NCBI GenBank assembly: GCA_947184155.2
Contig: CAMXCT020001496.1
Coordinates: 85,348-149,347, forward strand
DNA length: 64,000 nucleotides
Reading direction: 5' to 3'
From: Cladocopium goreaui
Taxonomy: Eukaryota > Sar > Dinophyceae > Suessiales > Symbiodiniaceae
Part shown: positions 2,420 to 64,000 of the stretch, in pieces
How positions within the stretch are numbered: the first letter of the stretch is position 1
Layout of the letters: each line of letters begins with the position of its first letter
Program-made: the position numbers and the translations under genes
Notes under the pieces: model-generated
Told to the model about the DNA's origin: nothing
The model's input: the letters and a program-made list of their open reading frames with translations, nothing else
The model's database searches: none

Positions 2420-5400
2420 GCCACTCACCCGGTGCATCCACGCAGGTCTTTTCCGCAACACGGTGTAAAGAGCGTCTTGAAGATGACCCAGAAGCTGTGA
2501 AGAGTGCTGAAACTGGAGACCTTCTTCACATGCATTGAAGGCAGTGCTGTACATCAAAATATTGCCTTGCCAGGATGGGTCAGAGAATGTCACAAAATTC
2601 CAACAATCGAAGTCCAACCCCCTAAGTTCTCAAAAGCTCTCCAGTTCGACCTGTTTTGACCTCTGTTCCCTGGCCCTGTTTTTGTTGTTATGTCAGCCAA
2701 TCTGACACATCCCGGCACCGTCCTTGTAGCGAGCTTTCCTTGAAGTCTGCGTAGAGCTGAAGCGCCTGACAGGGTGGCATCCCAAACATTCATCTGGGCA
2801 ATGAGGAAAAGCACCTGCATTAGAGTTTCCGTAAGCTTCCCAATAACAATTTGATTGACTTTGACAAGTAGACTCCCTTCAAAAAGAATGTCAGAATTGG
2901 TACTGGATTCTTTCTCATCTTGGAACTTACAGCTAGTAGCAGTCCTCTTAAACTATTGGCAATGCTGTCGCTCCCAATGGTAATGTGTCATGACATCATG
3001 GCAGTATTGCGCCTTCTGCCATTGGTGTTGAGACTCACATGCTCTGACCACAGCCTCACTTGCTCGCGAAAATGGTTCAGCCAACAAGGCATCTTTGTGA
3101 CCCATTTCAATGGATTGGGGGCCAGGGTCCCGAGCCCAAAAACCTCCCAAAATCCTCGCCCGAAAATGGATGCTGTTGACTACCTGGGAGCATAGTGGGC
3201 AATGGAATTGCATCTGATCATCATAGAATGTAGCTCGGCCATGAAATACAACGCCCATTGCCAACGTCCTCCCTTCTCGCATGCACTTATAGTGGATGTG
3301 TATGTGATCCGATTGCCTGCAAGTCTTTTGTCCAGCAGGTCGTTCAACAACAACAAAGCCCATTGCCATTGTTCACCCTTCTCGCAAGAACTGATTGCTG
3401 CACTGTATGTAATGACATTGGCCTCAATCTCTCTCCTCAGTCTGACACGCTTCCTAGAACCACACAGAGAAAGAGGACAAAAAAGAACATGTTCAAATGT
3501 TCAAACTTAATTCTGATGAACTGATCATCGTTCATCTTTCACTCTAAGCTCCATCACAGTGTCTCCTCCAGAGCCCAAATCAGTCCAAGAGCTCTTTGCC
3601 ACTGCCCAGCTTTTTCACAGCCACTGATGGCACTGTTGTAGGTGATGATGCTGGAGGTCCTCAGCTCCACTCCACACTGAGCATCCAAGAGTATCCAAGA
3701 GTGTTTCCAAAGCTACAAAGATTACACGAGCCTAGATGTCACTGGATGTCACTAGATGTCACAAGATTCTAGATATCCAGATGTTGTCTTCACTTCATAT
3801 TCCAGAAGGTGGATATCTGACATCAGTTTAGCATTTTTTAAAACATATTAAATCCCGCAAAGAACGCACCACAGGCCAGGCACCTGTTTTTTACTGTGTC
3901 CATCAACAGTTGGATTGCTCTTTGCCACTCTCTGCATCGTCCGCAGGCACTGATAGCTGCACTGCAAGTCACATCATTTCCCTGCATTTTTTTGTCTTGA
4001 AGATCCCTCAAAAGTTCAATGGCCCATTCCCATTCCTCACAGGCGCTGATCGCAGAATTGTAGCTGATCAAATCAGAGGACTCATTGGACTCGTTGGACC
4101 AAAGAATGTACAAAGCTCGCTGCCACTGGCCTCCCTTTTGGCAGCCACTTAACACAGCATTGAAGCTAATGAGGCTGGCTGACAGGCCATCCAGGTCCTC
4201 ACAGGCGGCTTACATCAAATATTTAGTCACTGGACCGAAATTCCTGAGTGTGTTAAACTGTGTTAAACTGTGTTGTGTGTGTTTTTCTTGTTTGCGTAAT
4301 ATCTCACTTGACCCTTTCAACCCTCGCAGCTTCCCGACTTGACCCTGGCAGTTTCCTGACTGGATTTCTACCCTGGATATTCATATTGGATATTCATAGA
4401 TACGCTTAGATAATCATATAATATATTATAATATCATATAGATCCTCAGGATTGCTCATGCATATAAATACTCATAGATGCTCATATGTGCTAGGGTCAA
4501 AACATATAAACGTGCTATATGGTTTATGGATGTTTATGGATGTTTATGGTCATCCATATTGGGAATCCTTTCCCCATGGGGTTTTTTTTAATCCCCATGG
4601 ATTGATGACGATGACCATCCTGGGCTCCTTCAACAGTTGAAGAGCAATCTCCCAGCTTTCGGCAACAGCCGTGATCGCGGCATTGCCTGAGGATAGCCAG
4701 TTGGTACAGGGACTGACAGGGTATCTCGGGCGCGTAAAATGGATACAATATGATACAATGACCTGTTCAATGTGTTTTGTATAGGATGTTCTGCTTCGCG
4801 ATTCCAACGGATCATTAAGTTGCCCTCCGGAATTGCTTCAGGATGACTAGACACAATGCAGGATGTTTGATTGCATTGGTGTTTGATGGTCTTGCATCAC
4901 GGTAGGGAATACAGGGACTACACGGTTCAGTCACGTTCTAGCGTGTCATGTGTTTCATAGTCATACTTTCAAACAAGTCTGAGGGATACTGGTGCTGCGA
5001 CTATGGTGCAAAAAAATGCAAATCCGCTTGAATCAGCATCTGCCAGCAAAGCAGCCCAATGACAAGAATGAATTTCTGCATACTCTGTACAACATGTACA
5101 GATTGGGAATTGGCTGGAATTGGCATGCAGCAGGGATTTTGTAGTAGTGGAAGGACCCGCATTAGTCTTGTGGACAGTCCCAAGCTGAATCAACATGCAT
5201 CACCCATCAGATTGCCCCGGTTGCCCCTGTATTGCTTTGTCTAGGCGCTCGTAATGATGTCTGCCTTCATCTGATGCTTCACTGCGTCCAAGGAATGCAA
5301 AGCAAGATGCCAGGCACCATCGGCTCCGTTCGCCATCAATGAGTTGTAGCAGATCAGATTGCCCTCTACATGAACTGCGCGCATATGTTGCAGATATTGC

Positions 5401-8400
5401 AAGCGAAGCTCCCAAATCTCTGAAAACGACCCGGAAGAGATGGCCGAACTGTAGGTGATCACCTGAATGGCAGTTGGCTTTGTTCCCACATACAAAACAA
5501 CCAAATCACAAATGCTCGTTGGATGAAGGACTGGTGCTGGGTTCACAGAAATAGCATGTGCTAGGCAATTATATTGACTCTTTGACAGAATGACCATGAA
5601 ACAAAGATTCAATTTCGTAGCTGTGATGGATGTAAGATGTTCATCCAGAACGTCATTTCTGATTTCAGTCAAAATCCTCTCAATTCACATTTCCAGCAAG
5701 CCTTTGAACCATAGACCCAGCTGCTTAGCCACCAAGGGACACTTCCCTGGAGCTGGATCCATTTCAGTTCCACCATCAGCTCGGCCGCCTGTCAGCTGGT
5801 AAACTTCAACATGGCTCCACCTTTGGTGAATGCTTTTTTTGCCAATGCCCCTTGCACAAAAACATGAACATGATTGAAAGTATATATGATATATTATATA
5901 TAATGATCATATATACGTATAATATATATGGCCTATGGCCCACTTTGAAATGATTGGCGGCATTCGTGATCTGACATAGATGGTCCAAATCCAATCAGCC
6001 AGTCCTCTCTCACTACTCTCTGCAACCCTCATGGTCCTGCTTCAATTACATCCCACAGCTTTCGCACTGACACCATCTGACCCAAACCGCAGCACATAGC
6101 ATGAACCCAAATGCCTTCTGCCAGTCTGATGACTCAATTGCTGTGTTGTAAGTAATCAGATCCACTTTTTCCAGTTGGAACAGCTGCAAAATGCGCATCC
6201 ATGGCATGTCGCAGGTGGCAGCATTTCGCGGTCCAGAAGATCCTGTAGCGGTGCAGTGGGGAGATCTTCGGGTTGCTCAGAAAAAGCTGGTGCTTCGGCT
6301 ATCAGTGTCTAATCAGTTGGAAGTGGAACAGCAGGCAGACCAACTGCAGAGCACAGGAGAAAAACTTTGCTCAGGGACGTTTCCCTCCATCACTTTGGGA
6401 TGGATTATCGCATATGGACACCAGCAGGCAATTTTCGGACTTGTCGGGTCACGATTGAAGGACCAGAGGATAGCCCAGCTTCATCCAGCAAGCTGGACTG
6501 CGCCATACCTAATACCCTCAAAGCAGCATAACTACACTACACAACGCATACAATATATATATATACATATATATATATATACTATTATTGATATATACTA
6601 TTATTGATATATATATATATGTATATTATATCATATATATAATACAATATAATATAATATAATATAATATAATATAGTATAATATAGTATAATATAATAT
6701 AATATAATATAATAGAATATAATATGATATGATATGATATGATATAATATAATATATATATATTATATTATATTATATAATTAATTAATGATGTCAGTTT
6801 AGAGAGAGAGAGATACTGTGGATGGAAGAAATACTGCACCAGTTGGTAGATGTTTTATTCCCTTCCAATCCCATTATTTATCTTGATTCATAGTTACCTA
6901 ATAGTTTCCAACTGGTGCAGGATTGCTTCCATCCACAGTAGGGAGAGAGCGTCTGTGTACTGTAGATCATAGATGCTGCTGTAGCATAGAACATATAAAA
7001 GTCTTTCATACAGGCGGTCTATACTGACCTGTCTACATACATCTAAGCACAAGACAAACCGATGAACCACAAAACACAGCAAACTCAGCGACTACCATAT
7101 GTTTATCGCTTCTGAACAAACCTGAATGAGTCTTCCATTACTAGGAATGTGCAGGACTATTGATGACTGTTGATACATAATAATAATGATACCTGCGTTT
7201 CCTCAATATCATCTTGGGGCTGTAAAGGCTGCAAATCTTCAAAATCCCCCCGGTTTTTTCGGAAATCTGCACCTGGGCATCCCAGATCTCTCATGAGTTT
7301 CAAGCAGTTCAGGGCTTGGGGCCATCTCTGGGTTGCAATCACTGAAGTGAAACTGCTGAGATCCCCCTGGACGCTCCAAACAGCCAGCTGTGACAACATC
7401 TTTGAAGCCATGGACCAGGACTTCATGCCGCTGATGGCGGTGTTGAAACTGATAACATCACAGTGAAGATCTTGATTCCTTCCAGGGAGCGCTTTCTGAT
7501 CACTTGGGGAATGTCTGAACATGAGCATACGAAAGTTCGGGAGCATGCCACGTGTGCCATGGTCACGTTATGTCACGTTACATGTACACGAAGATATTCA
7601 TTCCACCAGTGGTGATGAATTAGAACGAGTACATTAACACTATATCTGAACCACTATATCTGAACCCTTTTTTAGTAGGGAGACGACCATCCGTGACCAT
7701 CCCCTTCTGGAAATTGATGCGTCCCCTGCTCCTTCCAGTGGCCAAAACAGCACAGGCCGCTTCCCATCTCTGGGATTTGGTACATGCGTTGATCAATGTG
7801 TTGCAAGTCACAAGGTTGCCTTGGACAGCAAGAGATAAGTTGTGTGGGAAACCCCGTGCCACAAACCTACCCTTTAAGGGGATGGTTGCAATCCCATTTC
7901 TGGTGACTTTGGGAATGTTGTATCATTGGGTTTGCCACATGTATTTGTGATTTTGTGTTCACTGGAGGTGTACTTCGCACATGATCTAAAATGAAGATGT
8001 GATATAAATGCAGCTGCATATATGCAGTGTAATTGAAGATATGTAACCCCAGCGCCAGGCTAATCCTGGCAATTATGACACAGAATTTACAACGTGCTTG
8101 TCACAGCACAACTCGAACCGTCGAATTGTTTTTGCAGCAATTTCACACGGGGCACTAGATTTATGGTGAAATATGGTGAAATATACCCAATTCAACACAA
8201 ATCATGTTCCGAAATTTGGTTATACCCAATTACACATTTCAAAAACAGCATGTTTCACCATGTTTCACCATATTTCACCATATTTCATCATATTTCATCA
8301 TATTTTATGACATTTCATCATGCAAGCCTTAAAGCAACATCAAACATCCGCAGCGCAGCTGTGTCACCTCGAAGATCATCGAGTTCCCTCACCAGCTGCA

Positions 8401-17546: not shown

Positions 17547-19131
17547 CAAAGCACCTCACGAGCACTGGGGCGTTCTTCAGCAGTCTTGGACAAGAGCATC
17601 GCGACCAACTGGCAACCATCAGTAGCGGTGCAAGGTTGAAACTCCAAACCTACCATCCTCGTGCAAAAAGTAAGCTGCTGTGCAGGAGGCAAAGAAAAAT
17701 GTCCAGTTCCCCCTGTAGAGCCGGAGCGGATCATAGAATGTTGCCTTCTTAAAGCAAAGGGCTAGCTCTCTTCTAACACAATCTCACTCCAATTTTCTGC
17801 AACGGTCAAACCGTCAAAAGGCTGAAGTCAAGATAGGTCAGATATGTTCATAGGAAAAAAATGCACGTAGTCACGCAAGCAAGTTGGCCTCTCATCTACC
17901 AACTCATCCATTCAACCCAGGCTGAGGAAAAAAAACCTCAAACTCTACCAAACTTCACCATCATGTGTCGCCATTTAGCCCCCATAGTTCTGATAGTTCC
18001 TCAATGTTCCTCACATTTCTTGTTCAATCCCTTGGATCCCTTGGATCCCTTGGATCCCTTGGTTACCGTGTCCACTTTCGCGCCTTTGCCAGATCCTCAC
18101 TGTAGATCTCTGGGATGGGTTCGTAATGCTCCGAGACCTCAACCAAATACCAGCTGGGAGGGCAAAAATCGATCAAAATCGGCTGCAACCTGCTGGAAAT
18201 CGCTTGAAACATTTGAAACCTTGCGACTGTGGATGTTTAATGATATTTACATCCAAAAATTGTTGCCAGAATGATCAGAGATTCCATGTGAACAACAAAC
18301 TTTTGGGTGATATGGTTTTAGTATTGACCCGGAGCCTGGTGACGGGTGGCGACACATCTTGGATTGCAGCAATGCCGAGGGGATTGCTGTAGAATTGTTT
18401 TCGCTCCAACCTTCTTCTGAACTTCCCATTCCCGATTCAGGACGCGTGGCAATGCAATAAACGAGGCCCAATAAAGACTGGGACCTTAGCAAGAGACAAA
18501 GTCGGGGTATCGTCAACAAGTCCAGAAGCAGTTGCGCCGAAAGATTTCTAAACTATCTTCATTTGGCCTTGGATCTCCACTACCAATCCCTACCCTACAA
18601 CCTGCATCAATGGTGTCAACCAGCCAGGTTTCGTACTCGAAGGCATGGCGGAAGCGGCACCTTAGCGGCAAAAAACATGTCTGCAGTGGTTGGAACATCT
18701 TGGAACGGGAATGATTCGGAATGGTATTTCGCTATCCCATAGGATCCATGTATGGTATATATGCTACAGTAACATTTGGGTATATTGATGGTAAATGTTA
18801 CCATATATAGCATACATGGATCCTATGGCTATGTTGTGATTTGAGTCGTGCTAATATCTTGCCCTTCAAAATCCCCATCTGAATCTGAAAGATGGAGCCT
18901 CACTGTACAAAAATCCAATCTGAAGTGACATCGCCTGAAGCACCTCGAAAAACCCAATCCATCAATTTTTTCCAGCTGAAGCACAGCCTGTGGTCCAGAT
19001 CTTCCCAAATTCCGACCATTTCCCCACGGTTCCTGGCAGTTCCTGGTTGCTGGGTTGCCAAACATCTCGTAGAGCACACACCCCAGTGACCACATGTCGC
19101 TCTTATCGCGGTAAGGCTCACCCTTGCAAAC
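17547..19131 (-). CDS. NEK-like protein kinase, C-terminal half of the kinase domain
   Basis: Five exons join in phase: 19,131-19,064 (CKGEPYRDKSDMWSLGCVLY, subdomain IX), 18,660-18,637 (24 nt, CRFRHAF), 18,484-18,451 (SQSLLGLVYCI), 18,137-18,084 (VSEHYEPIPEIYSEDLAK) and 17,608-17,547 (LVAMLLSKTAEERPSAREVL, subdomain XI with its conserved Arg). Spacing and wording follow NEK kinases (SLGCVLYEM, then HAFE, then Y.PIP..YS.DL..LV..ML). Introns begin GT, GT, GC, GC and GT. The first exon starts in the phase left by the exon ending at 29,059, so this half continues the kinase N-terminal half upstream. Possible tail exons lie at 17,165-17,120 (HWNDMRRIKLTAFL), 17,080-16,990 and 16,725-16,600 (low-complexity, unproven). 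The stop codon was not located. Confidence 0.92.
18736..18828. repeat. 93-bp imperfect foldback in a kinase intron
   Basis: CCATAGGATCCATGTATG... is matched by its reverse complement ...CATACATGGATCCTATGG, with roughly 36-40-nt arms around a short spacer. It lies in the intron between the exons at 19,064 and 18,660. No flanking duplication was identified. Confidence 0.85.
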
Positions 19132-20084
19132 CTGCAGTGAAAGATTGGACTCAGAAACCAAGCAGGGCCGTGAAAAATCGCCTTCAAATACTGTACTACG
19201 TTACGTTGATATATTGGTGTGAGATCTTGTTAGTCCCCAAAAGTCGTCTGCTTAATTCTGCTTAATCCCTTTGATCTCAAGTCCAGCTATACAAATGATG
19301 TGATTTTCATTCCAATGTGTTTAGCCTGAGTGGAAACTAAAGAGGTAATGCATCTATTCTTGAGACGATCTCGGGAGATTCAAACTCCGTCTCGGCCAAA
19401 GGTGTTTTTATCGCGCCAGCCGCAAGCTGTCAAGAGTACTCCGATAGGAGTCTAATGCATGACCTCCATCATGCAAAGGAAACACAAATCAAGGATCATT
19501 ATCTTCTCTCCTGACATTTTGTATGGATTTTCTTTAGATGCATCTTGCACACTGGACTATGACTGCCAAAAAACTGGTTTGTGAAAATGTCAGAAGAGTT
19601 CAGCCACCTTTGTAGAATTTTGTAGACAAAAGTGGCTGCAAAATGTTACACAAAAGTTGCAGTTGGTGAATCACCGCGCTGGAGTTTCACCGTTTCACCT
19701 CAGCCTTGGCCGACTTTGAAATCTCGGATCTTATGCCAGGACCTGCGGTGGCCAGACGTGCAGCCCAAAACGAGGGATCAAAGTGATGAAGTCATATGAA
19801 GTCGCAAAAAATGGCGAAACCATGCCAAATCCACCAGCATTTCCACCAGGGGGGTTCCAACTTTGATAGAATTTCATGGGCAAGACATGGCAAGACTGAC
19901 TCTCACAGAGCCAAGTCCAAACCCGCTGCCTCGTCTGCAAACTCCGAGATCTCATGCTAGTCTTTGCAAAGCCTGCAACTTGAAAGAGCTAAGTGAAAAG
20001 CGCTTCATAAAACTTCGCAGTGCAGGGGCAAAGGGGGCCGAAGCGTGGGTTTCCGACGTTGCGCTGTGACGCTCCCGGGGGCGG

Positions 20085-20325
20085 GTGGCGCTGCGACGCT
20101 GCGACGCTGCGACGCTGCGACGCTGCCGTTGGGCCAGTGACGCTGCGACGCTGTTGGCGCTGCGACGCTGCGACGCTGGAGTGACGCTGCGACGCTGTTG
20201 GCGCTGCGACGCTGCGACGCTGCGACGCGGGAGCGACGCTGCGACGCTGTTGGCGCTGCGACGCTGCGACGCTGCGACGCGGGAGCGACGCTGCGACGCT
20301 GTTGGCGCTGCGACGCTTTCTTCTG
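20085..20325. repeat. GC-rich minisatellite (GCTGCGACG)n
   Basis: Nonamer GCTGCGACG in a higher-order unit of about 50 bp marked by CTGTTGGCGCTGCGACG. All reading frames on both strands stay open (ALRRCDA or SQRRSVA repeats), a composition effect rather than coding. It lies inside the 9.9-kb kinase intron. Confidence 0.95.
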
Positions 20326-20369
20326 CAAGAGTGCACACGGCGTTGCGTCGCGGCGCGACACGGAAACCC

Positions 20370-22385
20370 CGATTGAAGATCGTCAATGAATGTAGAAGTT
20401 TAACGGGGCTGGGAGAATTAAACCCTCATTGAAGATCGTCAATGAATGTAGAAGTTTAACGGGGCTGGGGAGAATTAAACCCTCATTGAAGATCGTCAGT
20501 GAATGTAGAAGTTTAACGGGGCTGGGGAGAATTAAACCCTCATTGAAGATCTCCATGAATGTAGAAGTTTAACGGGGGTGGGGAGAATTAAACCCTCATT
20601 GAAGATCGTCCATGAATGTAGAAGTTTAACGGGCTGGGGAGAATTAAACCCTCATTGAAGATCGTCAATGAATGTAGAAGTTTAACGGGGCTGGGAGAAT
20701 TAAACCCTCATTGAAGATCGTCATGAATGTAGAAGTTTAACGGGGCTGGGGAGAATTAAACCCTCATTGAAGATCGTCCATGAATGTAGAAGTTTAACGG
20801 GGCTGGGAGAATTAAACCCTCATTGAAGATCGTCAATGAATGTAGAAGTTTAACGGGGCTGGGGAGAATTAAACCCTCATTGAAGATCGTCATGAATGTA
20901 GAAGTTTAACGGGGCTGGGGAGAATTAAAACCTCATTGAAGATCGTCCATGAATGTAGAAGTTTAACGGGGGTGGGGAGAATTAAACTCTCATTGAAGAT
21001 CGTCAATGAATGTAGAAGTTTAACGGGGCTGGGAGAACTAAACCCTCATTGAAGATCGTCCATGAATGTAGAAGTTTAACGGGGCTGGGAGAATTAAACC
21101 CTCATTGAAGATCGTCAGTGAATGTAGAAGTTTAACGGGGCTGGGGTGAATTAAACCCTCATTGAAGATCGTCCATGAATGTAGAAGTTTAACGGGGCTG
21201 GGAGAATTAAACCCTCATTGAAGATCGTCAATGAATGTAGAAGTTTAACGGGGCTGGGGAGAATTAAACCCTCATTGAAGATCGTCAATGAATGTAGAAG
21301 TTTAACGGGGCTGGGGAGAATTAAACCCTCATTGAAGATCGTCCATGAATGTAGAAGTTAAACGGGGCTGGGGAGAATTAAACCCTCATTGAAGATCGTC
21401 AATGAATGTAGAAGTTTAACGTGGCTGGGTGGAATTAAACCCTTATTGAAGATCTTCAATGAATGTAGAAGTTTAACGGGGCTGGGGAGAATTAAACCCT
21501 CATTGACGATCTTCAATGAATGCAGAAGTTTAACGGGGGTGGGGAGAATTAAACCCTCATTGAAGATCGTCAATGAATGTAGAAGTCTAACGGGGCTGGG
21601 GAGAATTAAAACCTCATTGAAGATCGTCCATGAATGTAGAAGTTTAACGGGGGTGGGGAGAATTGAACTCTCATTGAAGATCGTCAATGAATGTAGAAGT
21701 TTAACGGGGCTGGGAGATTTAAACCCTCATTGAAGATCTTCGATGAATGCAGAAGTTTAACGGGGCTGGTAGAAATAAACCCTCATTGAAGATCGTCAAT
21801 GAATGTAGAAGTTTAACGGGGCTGGGGAGAATTAAACCCTCATTGAAGATCTTCGATGAATGTAGAAGTTTAACGGGGCTGGGAGAATTAAACCCTCATT
21901 GAAGATCTTCAATGAATGTAGAAGTTTAACGGGGCTGGGAGAATTAAACCTCATTGGGGCTAACGGGAGAATTAAACCCTCATTGAAGATCTTCAATGAA
22001 TGTAGAAGTTTAACGGGGCTGGGAGAATTAAACCCTCATTGAAGATCTCAATGAATGTAGAAGTTTAACGAGGCTGGGAGAATTAAACCCTCATTGAAGA
22101 TCGTCAATGAATGTAGAAGTTTAACGGGGCTGGGAGAATTAAACCCTCATTGAAGATCTTCGATGAATGTAGAAGTTTGAAGGGGCTGGGAGAATTAAAC
22201 CCTCATTGAAGATCTTCAATGAATGTAGAAGTTTAACGGGGCTGGGAGAATTAAACCCTCATTGAAGATCGTCAATGAATGTAGAAGTTTAACCCCCTCA
22301 TTGAAGATCTTCAATGAATGTAGAAGTTTGAAGGGGCTAAATTAAACCCTCATTGAAGATCGGAATGTAGAAGTTTAACGGGGCG
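20370..22385. repeat. About 57-bp satellite, roughly 35 copies
   Basis: Unit starts TTGAAGATCGTCAATGAATG, then TAGAAGTTTAACGGGGCTGG, GGAGAATTAAACCCTCA. Copies vary by single-base changes (GTC/TTC, CTGGGG/CTGGG/GTGGGG) and short deletions; the last copies are truncated. The unit is 19 codons long where intact, which creates 19-residue repeating frames on both strands. It lies between purD and the kinase C-terminal exons. Confidence 0.97.
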
Positions 22386-22559
22386 AGGTAGTGTTCAGAG
22401 GGGGTCGCTGGCTTGATCTTCGAAGATGCAACATATATTCAAAGGGGGTGGCGGGGCTGATGTCTCAAGGTGCAACGTATTGTTCAGAGGGGGTTGGGGA
22501 GTTGATGTCTTGTGATGGTGAAGATGCAACATAGTGTTCAGAGGGGGTTCCAGGGCTAC

Positions 22560-22895
22560 TGTCTCAGCTTGTCCGGTGGCTTCTCGGCTTCTCGGCTTCT
22601 CGGCTTGTCCGGTGGCTTCTCGGCTTCTCGGCTTCTCGGCTTGCCCGGCGGCTTCTCGGCTTCGCGGCTTCTCGGCTTCTCGGCTTGCCCGGCGGCTCCT
22701 CGGCTTCGCGGCTTCTCGGCTTCTCGGCTTGTCCGGTGGCTTCTCGGCTTCTCGGCTTCTTTCTTGGCTTCTCGGCTTGTGCCGGGCTTCTCGGCTTCTC
22801 GGCTTCTCGGCTTGTGTCGTACTTCGCGGCTTCTCGGCTTCTCGGCTTCTCGGCTTGTGTCGGGCTTCTCGGCTTCTCGGCTTCTGGTCGCATTT
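22560..22895. repeat. 9-bp minisatellite (GGCTTCTCG)n
   Basis: Tandem GGCTTCTCG interrupted by GGCTTGTCCGGTGGCTTCTC and GGCTTGCCCGGCGGCTTC. Frames read SASRLLGF on plus and EAEKPRSR on minus without stops. I regard it as non-coding. Confidence 0.95.
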
Positions 22896-23177
22896 CTGGG
22901 CCCCTTTTGCCCGTGCTTTGAAACTTCGGCTGGACGAGCTGTCAAAGGCAAGGTGGGAATTCATTTGTTCCTAAAAACACGCCTATCTACTAAACCAAAA
23001 TTATTATATTAAAAAAGGTGTTTATTTTTGCATCGAAACAGGAAATCAGGCCATAGCCCGGGAAATCAAGCGGTAAATCAAGATTTCTTCATATTTTATC
23101 TTCAGTGTATCAACAAAGTAGATTGTCGATCAAACACAAACCTTGGCAAAACACCCTGGATCTCAAACCCTGCATTC

Positions 23178-28733
<5,556 letters not shown>

Positions 28734-28910
28734 CTAGGGAAACAGATGTCAGTTGGTAGTTTCTTGCAGTACAGAATCCAATCGTGTGCCCAATCTCAGA
28801 CTTATATTTACTCTCCAAATCGATGGAATCGATGGCTATCATTTTCTGCAATGGGCAGTCGAGTGGACTTTGAAATGCCTCGGGCTTCCTTGTTCTATTT
28901 TGAATCACAA

Positions 28911-29023
28911 TTCAATGAATTGGTTTAAGGGAAAATCTACAGGAAACATCAGGAAACCATGGATTGTCCCATGAAGATCATGGGGGTTTCCTGTAAATTC
29001 TCCCTTAAACCAATCCATTGAAC
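28911..29023. repeat. 113-bp foldback element (ATTGGTTTAAGGGA arms)
   Basis: The left arm TTCAATGAATTGGTTTAAGG... and the right arm ...CCTTAAACCAATCCATTGAA pair over about 37 nt with few mismatches, around a core containing CCATGG. It lies between the kinase donor at 29,058 and the purD leader. A related, more degenerate copy is at 35,685-35,776. Confidence 0.88.
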
Positions 29024-29058
29024 AATAGCCACCCCAGCCCAACATGGTCCCAGCTCGC

Positions 29059-32000
29059 CTCTGGTGACATGTAGTAGGGAGTTCCCAACATGGTCACTGC
29101 CACTGCAGTGGTGCTCTCCAGCACACGTGCGATCCCGAAATCACCCACCTGATGCTATGGGACCGTTGGGATCCCTTGATCTCACAATGGAGGATCCGAA
29201 CAAGTTGCAACAAGCTGCACAATGGAGGACTAATAATGACTAATAAAGTGACTAACTATGGACTAATAAACTGAATTTTGTTCTGCTTGTGCTTTACTTC
29301 CAGACTTGGGTGCTGATGCATCAACATGGCCAAGCTGCAGGTGTACTGAACATCCTTGTGCCCTGCCTTGACTGTCCGATGCTCCACATCTAGAAGCCTG
29401 GATGTGGGTGACGAGTTCTGGTCGTGAAACATGAAGGATTGTGAAAATTGCCCGAGACAGAGACGAAGAATAAGAAGGAGCTACAAGTACATTTGAATGT
29501 ACAAAATTTACGAACTCTTTCAACTCAATCTTTGGTTTCCAAGGGGATATTGTCTCTTGCAACTCTTGATCTGCAAGCTTTTGCATCTCAGCTAGCTGAG
29601 ATCTCCTTGCAGCCAAGTTGCATGTTTGACGTTTTCAGATCTCGGTGTAGAATGTGGCAGGAGTGAACCTTTGCCCAGCCAGCCATGATGAGAAACTCTA
29701 TACATCTCTATACCAACACAACCGCACCACACAAGATACCTGTAGTATACTGAGTATCACCTGGGAGTATAGTGTATCTCTCAACTGGAAAAATCTGCAG
29801 TCTTATCTCCGATATTGGGGGTTCCAAGGGCTTGATGCCTGCACCTCAGGTACAGTTACAAGATCTTACAAGTGGAAGGGAAGTTGCTGTGGTTTCTTGA
29901 TTTCAATCTCTTTCTTTACTTGCTGTCATGTTCTCATGCATTCTCCTCCCAGATTGTCCGGTCAGCTTCTATGATTGTCATCGCGCCAAGCGGTGTGCAT
30001 TGTCATCCCACCCCTGGATCCCCCAGCATACTCCATGCCCTTCAGCATCTGCGAGAAGAGGTGCAAGACCGAATCCTCTTGTAATGGCCTAAAGAAAACA
30101 AGGAGACGCCATATATGCGGCCCATAATAAATTACAGCGAAGAATTGCGTCCGCTGGGGGAAATGAAACTAATCTATCCTAAGTTGCGAGCAACCATTGA
30201 CCATCTTCGTGTTCATATTGTGTTCATTACATTGTCCCTGACAAAGCAGCTGCCCTTTGGTATCGCCAAGCTGCAAAGAACTGGGAACGATCTCAGTTTG
30301 GGGGAAATATGGGGGATTATACGTTCTTATCCAGATGTATTCATCTGTACTCAGTGTACTCACGGTAATAAAAAAAAAAACACTCCCGAAGCTATGGTTT
30401 TCAATCGAACCGAACAGCGATGCTTTCTGAGATGCCCGGCTCAGAAGCCTGGGCTAAACTGTCCAACCATATCCGAAGGTCTCCACCTCACGGCGTGCAA
30501 GAGAAAACGTTTCGAAACGTTTCAAAGTTAAAAAATAATGTTCCAATGTTTCCAAAGTGTCAGAATCATTTCCTCGTCTGATGCTAACTAGCAGGACCCT
30601 CCTTGAATATAAATCTTCACAAACCTTCATAATTTTTCTATGATTCTTAGCTTCAAGGGTTTGAACTTTCCATGGATCACTCAGCAGCACCTGCACAGTA
30701 CTCCATGATGTTGACCAAGGCTTGGCCGTGGCCAGCTGGCAGCGGGCTGTTTCGACTTCGGGTCTTTCGTGAAGGGGACGAAGGGAACGAAGGGAACAAT
30801 CCATGACGACACTTTAAAAGTCTGTCACTCACTACAGCCCTGATCATTATAGAAGTTCGATTCAAGGTATAATGTTCAAAGATGTTCAGGTTTCCCTTGA
30901 CCCATTCCTTTGCCTGAGTGAAGGAAGGATGCGACGTGGGTGACCTTATCACGTTTGTGACTAGAACATACTAGAACGTGGTTCTTGTCCTTTCCCACAC
31001 CTAAAACCGTGCAAGAACTCCGCTAGTGAATGACATATCGTCACAAATATCATACTATATGTCTTGATATATATATATATATATATTTATATACAGTTCG
31101 CAAGCTGAGTAAGGTTGAGTTTAGACATATGGAGACGAAGCGCTCAACCCCGCTGTGTCCAGTTAGATTAGTTGTCGGAAACATACCCCAGGTGGTCTTT
31201 CTGGGTCTCGTGGCACGTGCAGGCTAGTGCCAACTGAGACCAACAAAACAACCCAAAAAAACATTTAAAAAAAAAAAAAAAAACATTTTAGGGCACCGCC
31301 CTGCCCGTTGAGGCCCCAAGCAACGTTGGGATGCTTCAGCCTTGAGGATCGACAAGTTTATGCTTTCTGTTCATTCAGTGGCGACATGGATCCAGAAGCT
31401 CTGAGTGCTAGTCCGCTTCAGAACTTCAACTTCCTGGAGGGCCAAAGCTCGATCTTTGTCCTTCACTGCGGCAGTTCTACCTGACCCAAATTAGCAGGAT
31501 GGGTCCCGAAAGGGGGGCGTGCGAAACCTGGTAGATCTGGTAGAAGCTTGGATTATCACAGATTATAGACCTAAACGATCCAAAGACGTTCCAGGACCTG
31601 GAGAAATATGGAGAAATGGAGAAATAACATGAAATGGTCAAAACAAATGTCTTGAGTCGAGCTATGTCGAGCTCAAGAAGTGTTGGTGCACGGGTCCTTG
31701 AGATGGTCAAGGAAAACCACTTTGGCCACGACCTGGCAAAACGATCATCCCATTGAAAAGAGGTCAAAGAAGATAGTGCATTTTCAAAATGGTGGAATCA
31801 TGTGGAAGCAATCACTGCATTATTGCCAATTCCTGGTGGATTGTGGTCCTAATTAGCGTTATTAGTAATTAGGCATGTTTAATCATGTTTAGATAGTTTC
31901 AAACTGGTTTCAGATGTTCGTCTCCAAAGTGGTCTTGACCACTACCCTCGGAGAGCTATCTTTTGAACACAGCGGTTCTAGCCATTGCAAGCTCAACACG

Positions 32001-32496
32001 GCCTATCCCCAGTCTTGTATTGCGGCATGACACAAGGAAAGCACACAACCGAACCATAGGAATCATGGGAAGTTAGTCCATCTCTTGTTCAACTCACAAC
32101 ACTCTCCATCAGCAGCGTGCTCACTGCATGAACCTGCCACCTGCCTCACATTCCAGCTCGTGTTGACTTAATTTGCTAGACACTACCTTTTAAGGAGTCC
32201 TCTAAACATCTTTAAACAGTAAACAACTAGCTATCTGAAACATTCCTGTGCTTCCAACGGCTCCCAACCATTTTCCCGGCACCTGTTCGCGCCCAGGAGT
32301 ATCAGACGACTCCGCCAAATGCCTGAGGGCGCACGGGATCATATTGACATCAGAGTGTTGCATGTTGCCCTCCGAAGGCTGCCACAAACCGCATTCGTGG
32401 CGAATGTGATGGGCTTCCCTGTTGAGTGCACTGAGATGCAGGCGCAGTGCCATACTGACCACGGCCCAGAAAGCGAAGGGTTCGGAATCCATGGGC
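29059..32496 (-). CDS. NEK-like protein kinase, N-terminal half of the kinase domain
   Basis: Exons: 32,496-32,446 ([11 protein letters not shown], glycine loop), 31,480-31,409 ([18 protein letters not shown], subdomains II-III), about 30,735-30,691 ([10 protein letters not shown], hinge), 30,486-30,441 ([15 protein letters not shown]), 30,088-30,028 ([17 protein letters not shown]), 29,668-29,606 ([14 protein letters not shown], catalytic loop) and 29,148-29,059 ([19 protein letters not shown]). Catalytic residues are present (HRD Asp, DFG Asp, APE-type SPE), as expected of an active Ser/Thr kinase; NEK kinases act in cilia and the cell cycle. Introns after these exons begin GC, GC, GT, GC, GC, GA and GC. 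The exon carrying subdomain IV is uncertain (perhaps near 30,930). The last exon ends in phase 0 at SPE and continues at 19,131. Upstream start codon not located. Confidence 0.92.
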
Positions 32497-58165: not shown

Positions 58166-58206
58166 CTTCCCACTGCTCTAAACCTACGTGCAACAAAAAA
58201 ACACTA

Positions 58207-59385
58207 GTGCCAAAATGGAGAAAATCTGCTAACAAATTTATTTCGCAGCCTTCATGCAGCCACTCCAAGACGATTTATGAAGTCGAGCTGCAAAAGACAT
58301 TACGCATGCAGCCAAAGCAAGAAGCAACCTTGACGCAGCCATTCCAATGCGATCTGCGGAGACTGAGTTGCAAAACACAAGAGAACTACGCGCAATGGCG
58401 TCGGAAATTGTAGCTCCAAAACCGGATCTCGACGCCAGAGCGAAAAAAAAGACGATTTTGAAGCACTTTTTAAAAGGATTTTTAGAAGGAAAATCACTAG
58501 CGCCAAAATGGAGAAAATCTGCTGACAAATCACTGTCGCAGCCTTCGTGCAGCCACTCCAATACGATTTACGAAGTCCAGCTGCAAAAGACAATAGTATT
58601 ACGCATGCAGCCACAGCATGAAGCAACCTTGACGCAGCCAGTACAATGCGATCTGCGGAGACTGAGTTGCAAAACACAATAGAACTACGCGCAACGGCGT
58701 CGGAAATTGTAGCTCCAAAACCGGATCTCGACGCCGAACGAAAAAAAGACGATTTTGAAGCACTTTTTAAAAGGATTTTTAGAAGGAAAATCACTAGCGC
58801 CAAAATAAGAAAATCTGCTAACAAATCCATTTCGCAGCCTTCATGCAGCCGCTCCAAAACGATTTACGAAGTCCAGCTGCAAAAGACAGTAGTATTACGC
58901 ATACAGCCAAAGCAGGAAGCAACCTTGACGCAGCGACTACAATGCGATAAGCAGAGACTGAGTTGCAAAACACAATAGAACTACGCGCAACGGCGTCGGA
59001 AATTGTAGCTTCAAAACCGGATCTTGATGCCAGAGCGAAATAAAGGCGATTTTAAAAGGATTTTTAGAAGGAAAATCACTAGCGCCAAAATGGAGAAAAT
59101 CTGCTGACAAATCACTGTCGCAGCCTTCATGCAGCCGCTCCAAAACGATTTACGAAGTCCAGCTGCAAAAGACAATAGTATTACGCATACAGCCAAAGCA
59201 GGAAGCAACCTTGACGCAGCCATTACAATGTGAGTTGCAAAACACAATAGAACTACGCGCAACGGCGTCGGAAATTGTAGCTTCAAAACCGGATCTCGAC
59301 GCCAGAGCGAAAAAAAGAAGATTTTGAAGCACTTTTTAAAAGGATTTTTAGAAGGAAATTCACTAGCGCCAAAATGGAGAAAAAA
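58207..59385. repeat. About 290-bp tandem repeat, four copies
   Basis: Units begin with GCCAAAATGGAGAAAATCTG near 58,208, 58,502, 58,799, 59,084 and 59,366 (periods about 283-297 bp). Each holds CAGCCTTCATGCAGCC, ACGCATGCAGCCAAAGCA, GGCGTCGGAAATTGTAGC and AAGCACTTTTTAAAAGGATT. A frame of about 110 codons (ETELQNT.ELRA.ASEIVAPK) is repeated on plus, with a counterpart on minus. I regard it as satellite. Confidence 0.93.
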
Positions 59386-62444: not shown

Positions 62445-64000
62445 GCTCTTCTCCCCACCCATTTCCACCCACTCCCTTGCACCCACGCCGTCCGCAGCCG
62501 TCCGCGCAATTCTCCCCACCCATTTCCCGTCCGCAGCCGTCCGCACAGCCAAGCTCGCTCATCCCCAGCGGCTTCTTCTCCCCACCCATTTCCACCCACT
62601 CCCTTGCACCCACGCCGTCCGCAGCCGTCCGCGCAATTCTCCACACCCATTTCCCGTCCGCAGCCGTTCGCGCAGCCACGCTCGCTCATCCCCAGCGGCT
62701 TCTTCTCCCCAACTATTTCCAGCCACTCCCTTGCACCCACGCCGTCCGCAGCCGTCCGCGAAATTCTCCCCACCCATTTCCCGTCCGCAGCCGTTCGCGC
62801 AGCCACGCTCGCTCATCTCCAGCGCCTTCTTCTGCCCACCCATTTCCAGCCACTCCCTTGCACCCACGCCGTCCGCAGCCGTCCACGCCATTCTTCCCAC
62901 CCATTTGCCGTCCGCAGCCGTCCGTGCAGCCAAGCTCGCTCATCACCAGCGGCTTCTTCTCTCCACCCATTTCCAGCCACTCCCTTGCACCCACGCCGTC
63001 CGCAGCCGTGCACACAATTCTCCGAACCCATTTCCCGTCCGCAACCGTCCGCGCAGCCGAGCTCGCTCATCACCAGTGGCTTCTTCTCCTCACCCATTTC
63101 TGTAGCCACTCCCTTGCACCCACGCCGTCTGCAGCTGTCCGCGCACTTCTCCGCACCCATTGCCCATCCGCAACCGTCCGCGCAGCTAAGCTCGCACATC
63201 ACCAGCGGCTTCTTCTCCCCCACCCATTTCCAGCCACGCCGTTGCACCCACGCTGTCTGCAGCCGTCCGCGCAATTCTCCGCAGCCATTTCCCGTCCGCA
63301 GCCGTCCGCACGGCCAAGCTCGCTGATCTCCAGCGGCTTCTTCTCCCCATGCATTTCCACCCACTCCCTTGCACCCACGGCGTCCGCAGCCGTCCGCCCA
63401 AATCTCCCCACCCATTTGCTTCCGCAGCCGTCCGCGCAGCCAAGCTCGCTCATCATCAGCGGCTTCTTCTCCCTACCCATTTCCACCCACGCCGTCCGCA
63501 ACCGTCCGCGCACTTCATTGCCCGTCCGCGGCCGTCCGCGCAGCCAAGCTCGCTCATCACCAGCGGCTTCTTCTCCCCACCCATTTCCAGCCACTCCGTT
63601 GCACCCACGCCGTCCGCAGCCTTTCGCGCAGTTCTCCGCACCCATTTCCCGTCGGTAGCTGTCCGCGCAGCCGAGCTCATCAGCGGCTTCTTCTCCCCAC
63701 CCATTTCCAGCCACTCCCTTGCACCCACGCCGTCCGCAGCCGTCCGCGCAATTCTCCGCACCCATTTCCCGTCCACAGCCGTCCGCGCAGCCAAGCTCGC
63801 TCATCACGCAGCGGCTTCTTCTCCCCACCCATTTCCAGCCACTCCCTGGCACCCACGCCGTCCGCAGCCGTCCGCGCAGTTCTCCGCACCCATTTGCAGT
63901 CCGCGGCCGTCCGCGCAGCCAAGGTCGCTCATCACCAGCGGCTTCTTCTCCCCACCCATTTCCAGCCACTCCGTTGCACCCACGCCGTCCGCAGCCGTCC
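62445..64000. repeat. 127-bp satellite, at least twelve copies, runs off the window
   Basis: The unit contains CTTCTTCTCCCCACCCATTT, CCAGCCACTCCCTTGCACCC, ACGCCGTCCGCAGCCGTCCG, CGCAATTCTCCGCACCC, CCGTCCGCAGCCGTCCGCGC and AGCCAAGCTCGCTCATCACC. Unit length, measured between CTTCTTCT starts at 62,572, 62,699 and 62,826, is 127 bp. Some copies carry internal deletions (about 63,500). Open frames on both strands are by-products. Confidence 0.96.

Follow-up and report, generated by a model that had tools for sequence, protein, structure and literature searches.

Can a complete, intron-rich gene lie within a single intron of another gene on the same strand? The question is raised by a stretch of 64,000 nucleotides from the dinoflagellate Cladocopium goreaui (hereafter the window), which forms the right end of contig CAMXCT020001496.1 (C1496; positions 85,348-149,347 of 149,347 bases) in an assembly of 1.166 Gb and 6,202 contigs (GCA_947184155.2). 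An initial annotation, made from the letters alone, had placed a full purD gene with its own ATG inside an intron of a NEK-like kinase, in the same orientation. The analysis reported here gives this reading a probability of about 0.8, i.e. a complete, intron-rich purD is probably a genuine same-strand nested gene within a 9,927-nt intron of a NEK-family kinase. Nesting is the best supported explanation because of the exon order, the exact adjacency of the kinase halves, the open frames of both genes and the target-site duplications flanking two inserted repeats. The two features at issue are:

19,132 to 29,058, minus strand: host intron, 9,927 nt, GC-AG, phase 0 (spliced alignment to the paralog C2952)
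23,178 to 28,652, minus strand: purD (glycinamide ribonucleotide synthetase), 17 exons, ATG at 28,652 and stop codon at 23,180-23,178

The host gene was modelled by spliced alignment of the minus strand to C2952, a NEK paralog in the same genome that lacks introns and has an open frame of 445 amino acids. The raw alignment ran from 32,490 to 17,048 in 21 exons. Fourteen of these were kept and seven weak ones were dropped, two of them beyond the kinase domain; three borders were altered and one short exon was added by hand. The resulting model has 15 exons and 14 introns, of which 13 measure 73-711 nt and one measures 9,927 nt, the size that had been claimed for it. The exons are listed below in the order of transcription; borders are from the spliced alignment to C2952 unless another source is given.

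32,444 to 32,490, minus strand: kinase exon with the Gly-rich loop, 5' border not set
31,697 to 31,732, minus strand: kinase exon with the ATP-binding Lys
31,414 to 31,460, minus strand: kinase exon with the helix C Glu
31,322 to 31,340, minus strand: kinase exon RLKHPNV, with a hand-trimmed 3' border
30,691 to 30,720, minus strand: kinase exon LVNIMEYCA
30,458 to 30,486, minus strand: kinase exon, 3' border trimmed by hand and provisional
30,028 to 30,088, minus strand: kinase exon
29,614 to 29,668, minus strand: kinase exon with HRD, from paralog comparison, 3' border extended by hand
29,355 to 29,389, minus strand: short kinase exon, chosen by hand
29,059 to 29,148, minus strand: kinase exon ending in phase 0 with a GC donor
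19,064 to 19,131, minus strand: kinase exon VCKGEPYRDKSDMWSLGCVLYE(M)
18,637 to 18,660, minus strand: kinase exon (M)CRFRHAF
18,451 to 18,484, minus strand: kinase exon (E)SQSLLGLVYCI
18,084 to 18,137, minus strand: kinase exon VSEHYEPIPEIYSEDLAK
17,553 to 17,608, minus strand: kinase exon LVAMLLSKTAEERPSARE

The two exons bordering the large intron fit together without loss or overlap. The exon with its 3' end at 29,059 stops in phase 0 at GTPYYMSPE with the donor GCGAGC, exactly as first described. The exon starting at 19,131 follows CTGCAG in phase 0 and reads GTT TGC AAG onwards, so that its phase and acceptor stood while the peptide given for it did not; the first V had been omitted and the true start is VCKGEPYRDKSDMWSLGCVLYEM. 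Its own 3' end at 19,064 lies in phase 2, with the donor GTTTGG. Compared with C2952, the 5' half reaches residue 227 and the 3' half continues from residue 228, with 80 gapless columns and 63.75% identity. The joined peptide of 61 amino acids likewise aligned without a gap to residues 166-226 of the NEK1 chain (E 4.3e-25), which bears out the earlier claim that the halves are exactly adjacent. Judged by the E-values, this adjacency is not a chance match at the level of sequence. Further kinase exons flank the large intron on both sides in the correct order. The arrangement would also be compatible with two separate transcripts of the kinase halves being trans-spliced together, and leader trans-splicing has been described in the group, according to the accessible portions of the literature. 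Nothing requires such a step, however, as the halves lie on one strand, in the right order and between a GC donor and an AG acceptor, and this explanation is extremely improbable.

The eight kinase exons from HRD to SARE, spanning the large intron, form a single frame with neither stop codon nor frameshift, and the translated exons upstream of HRD were also free of both. The motifs GRGQYG, VVAK, HRD, DFG, SPE, DMW and ERPS follow one another in order, the joined peptide matched Pfam Pkinase with an E-value of 1.5e-44 (profile positions 23-258 of 263), and the matches to solved structures were headed by NEK1, NEK2 and NEK7. The host is thus predicted to be a NEK-family kinase, its best matches belonging to that family and its catalytic motifs being kept. 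Retention of these motifs and of the open frame also speaks against a dead kinase, in which the enlarged intron would no longer be spliced and purD alone would be expressed. Such decay would agree with some N-lobe segments and one splice site not being settled in the model, and with the presence of other long-frame NEK-like genes in the genome; taken together, we consider it improbable.

The genome was searched for kinase relatives with a query extending from PLQED to SAREVL, N-lobe exons upstream of PLQED lying outside it, and 150 of 222 candidates were scored. Three of the four matches within the window were 75-94% identical, and the fourth (42%) extends into the intron. None of the 100 matches outside the window exceeded 61% identity, in agreement with the earlier statement that no second copy of either half was seen. 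Five NEK-like loci (C2952, C2046, C499, C4669 and C5981) and one kinase on C275 are continuous across the join point, C4669 and C5981 having no intron at that position. A second kinase on C275 seems to be interrupted just before APE. The kinase on C22 carries a 304-nt intron one nucleotide from the join point; owing to this offset, and to its phase 2 against phase 0 in the host, homology of the two introns is not claimed.

The nested gene was found to be complete, as had been proposed. The purD model comprises 460 codons in one open frame with a terminal stop only, and its 16 introns measure 98-668 nt. All three Pfam domains are full-length (GARS_N 1-100 of 100, GARS_A 1-194 of 194, GARS_C 1-92 of 92), and the joined exons matched a solved GAR synthetase with an E-value of 2.6e-120. 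The gene (28,652-23,178) lies wholly within the host intron (29,058-19,132) and on the same strand, its ATG 406 bases past the kinase exon. The two purD references conflict on exon 2 and on several borders, and the final model combines borders of both. Across the kinase and purD models (n=30), splice donors were GC in 18 cases, GT in 6, GA in 5 and TT in 1. This mix resembles several, though not all, species columns in the accessible part of a published dinoflagellate table, a likeness that is partly circular since the aligner permitted only GT, GC and GA donors. The GC and GA donors and the numerous small exons are as expected of a dinoflagellate. With 16 introns in the model, purD is unlikely to have arisen by recent retroposition. 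Alternative splicing of the N-terminal kinase exons onto purD could yield a NEK-PurD fusion. In the stretch separating the kinase donor from the ATG of purD, the raw count of AG sites is 24, of which three are in frame and one of these (28,733) is open. The product would, however, contain half a kinase domain, and purD begins with an ATG of its own where the GARS N domain starts; we regard a fusion as most unlikely.

The purD of the window is not the only GARS of the genome, as a search in which all 30 candidates were scored revealed. A gene on C5950 carries a PurD part with 50-58% identity. In the same region (L009; C5950:218,000-225,000), PurF-like, PurD, PurM-like and PurN-like parts occur in succession, apparently as a multifunctional purine enzyme, the parts other than PurD having been recognised by eye. 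On C6120 (79,300-89,200, L008), at approximately 4,660-5,907, exons 14-17 of purD recur as a partial, decayed duplicate with about 70% DNA identity and an inner inversion. A single frame of 448 amino acids with 47% identity lies on C1, a bacterial-looking contig. This contig, of at least 7.2 Mb, holds many long kinase frames besides the single-frame purD and looks like a bacterial contaminant.

Downstream of purD, the intron holds the repeat array that had been described as about 2.5 kb of satellite. The array is present, but it is not a stand-alone satellite; it is part of a dispersed transposon-like element of 2.9 kb, which is newly recognised here. On the opposite side of purD, closely adjoining the kinase donor downstream of it, lies a short hairpin resembling a miniature inverted-repeat transposable element (MITE). 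Without purD, the element and the hairpin, about 1,430 nt of the intron remain.

20,018 to 22,920, no strand assigned: hAT-like element, 2,903 bp, exact termini, holding short-unit arrays and the 57-bp satellite
20,010 to 20,017, no strand assigned: left copy of the 8-bp target-site duplication AAACTTCG, from terminus comparison
22,921 to 22,928, no strand assigned: right copy of the 8-bp target-site duplication AAACTTCG, from terminus comparison
28,911 to 29,022, no strand assigned: dispersed MITE-like hairpin repeat, 112 bp, TTG at both sides, from the own-genome repeat search

The terminal inverted repeats of the element match at 18 of 22 positions, and its left terminus has 55 exact copies genome-wide, while a reversed-pattern control gave 0. 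Of six other loci sampled, L018 has only part of the element and no right terminus, and the remaining five cover its whole length; the copies in the window and at L015, L016, L017, L019 and L020 measure 2.8-3.3 kb. In five of the six copies with both termini (that of the window and four others) the target-site duplication is perfect (8/8), and in the sixth it is 6/8 inside a TA-rich stretch. In its 8-bp duplications and short inverted termini the element resembles hAT transposons, hence the label hAT-like.

The 57-bp satellite occurs on at least 40 contigs (40 of 312 candidates scored); the window excepted, identity is 94-98%. It would thus be a natural site for a misjoin, and with the dispersed hairpin on the other side of purD, a misassembly that placed purD and the array between two kinase pieces has to be considered. 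The perfect 8-bp duplication around the array element indicates, however, that before the insertion the kinase 3' side directly adjoined the purD side. This is a strong argument against a misjoin at the array, since one within the satellite would leave no such duplication. On the kinase-purD side, the only sequence that is not unique is the 112-bp hairpin, itself flanked by TTG: the stretch 28,660-29,160 matched at full length to itself only, and the other scored matches (40 of 1,584 candidates) fell in or beside the hairpin. Likewise, the stretch 19,050-20,050 matched at full length only to itself, the others being matches of 33-50 bases at the element end (40 of 54 candidates scored). As counterpart kinase halves above 61% identity were also not found among the scored candidates, misassembly is very unlikely.

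A number of points weigh against the nested arrangement as described. Neither the start codon nor the C-terminus of the kinase was found in the spliced alignment to C2952. In the N-lobe, no exon is assigned to some 23 residues following the Gly loop or to some 14 preceding LVNIMEY, and one donor of the kinase model reads TT. Integrity of the host gene is, on this alignment, only partly supported, given the exon gaps, the missing ends and the TT donor. The model also owes its shape to hand editing (7/21 raw exons dropped, 3 borders changed, 1 exon added). The 3-bp repeat around the hairpin is weak as evidence of insertion. Flanks of the window copy and 12 others were read by eye; after exclusion of four copies that had lost an end, seven of nine had the same three bases on both sides and two had two of three; two of the seven matching copies (L021 and L023) have identical flanks. 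Finally, no spliced-leader relics were present in the window at up to 3 mismatches, a result that decides nothing for or against; three partial matches occurred in the window, none of them in the intron.

Around the locus, Pfam frame scans covered 1-15 kb and 34-49 kb of the window on the minus strand only. They revealed matches to a 2OG-Fe(II) oxygenase and to PPR repeats above the curated cut-off, and to bestrophin below it. More long tandem arrays were observed towards the contig's right end, at 58,197-59,383 (296-bp units) and 62,447-64,000 (127/254-bp units).

If purD is nested as proposed, one NEK intron would have been enlarged to 9,927 nt and would now hold purD, the MITE-like hairpin and the 2.9-kb hAT-like element with its satellite. 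Kinase and purD, perhaps together with the minus-strand neighbours, would most likely be transcribed on a single precursor. Polycistronic precursors of dinoflagellates are thought to be split by leader trans-splicing, according to the accessible text of the published work, and it is from this that we infer trans-splicing of purD; the spliced-leader account would fit the group and the minus-strand neighbours. Cis-splicing of 29,059 to 19,131 would produce the kinase mRNA by removing the whole intron, purD being discarded with it. The purD mRNA would arise by spliced-leader trans-splicing to an AG within the 406 bases that separate the kinase donor from the ATG, and would have its own 3' end. 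One precursor molecule would normally yield only the kinase or the purD mRNA. A further idea, which we hold to be rather doubtful, is that the two genes compete for one precursor, kinase cis-splicing destroying the purD message and purD trans-splicing truncating that of the kinase.

Nested genes have been reported in dinoflagellates before. In the parts of the publication available, two isolates of Polarella glacialis have 4,898 (8.4%) and 3,359 (6.5%) genes nested in introns, a structure that the paper states to be backed by full-length transcripts (PMC7245778). As there, a protein-coding gene lies within an intron of a multi-exon dinoflagellate gene; the Polarella example is an alanine-tRNA ligase gene with 15 genes, several of light-harvesting type, spread over three of its introns, whereas here it is one intron-rich enzyme gene. 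At the EvidenceModeler stage of that study, genes inside introns were accepted only for introns longer than 10,000 bp, compared with 9,927 here. Within a search of open-licence literature with partial coverage, this was the only report of dinoflagellate nested genes met, the word 'nested' is absent from the accessible text of a Prorocentrum paper, and a Diplonema paper contained no result on nested genes.

In the Drosophila Gart locus, as quoted in the available part of a tick paper (PMC3160391), Pcp lies in intron 1 of ade3 on the complementary strand. Both arrangements are nested and include a purine-pathway gene, the GARS of Gart being backed by 2qk4, a human protein. In Gart, however, the host is the purine gene and the inner gene lies on the opposite strand, while here the purine gene is the inner one and shares the strand of its host. 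Simple nested pairs of human and mouse, which also have one gene inside an intron of another, are on opposite strands in 74.3% (220/296) and 77.8% (193/248) of cases, and their inner genes are described as usually short and without introns, in the accessible text of that study (PMC8467205). Unlike these, purD is on the same strand as its host and has 16 introns. An older human figure for opposite-strand pairs, likewise from a source available in part, is about 63%. With 8.4% and 6.5% of genes nested in Polarella and about a quarter of human and mouse pairs on the same strand, as far as these sources go, the sense of an unusual arrangement conveyed by the initial annotation was too strong. The present case is a well-supported further instance of nesting already reported as common in dinoflagellates.

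The target-site duplication provides a simple assembly check across a satellite array. If the two genes do compete for one precursor, the relative amounts of a NEK kinase and a purine-synthesis enzyme would be set by which splice partner is chosen. As a well-bounded same-strand nesting with an intron-rich inner gene, the locus could serve to find out whether cis-splicing or leader trans-splicing acts first on a dinoflagellate precursor.

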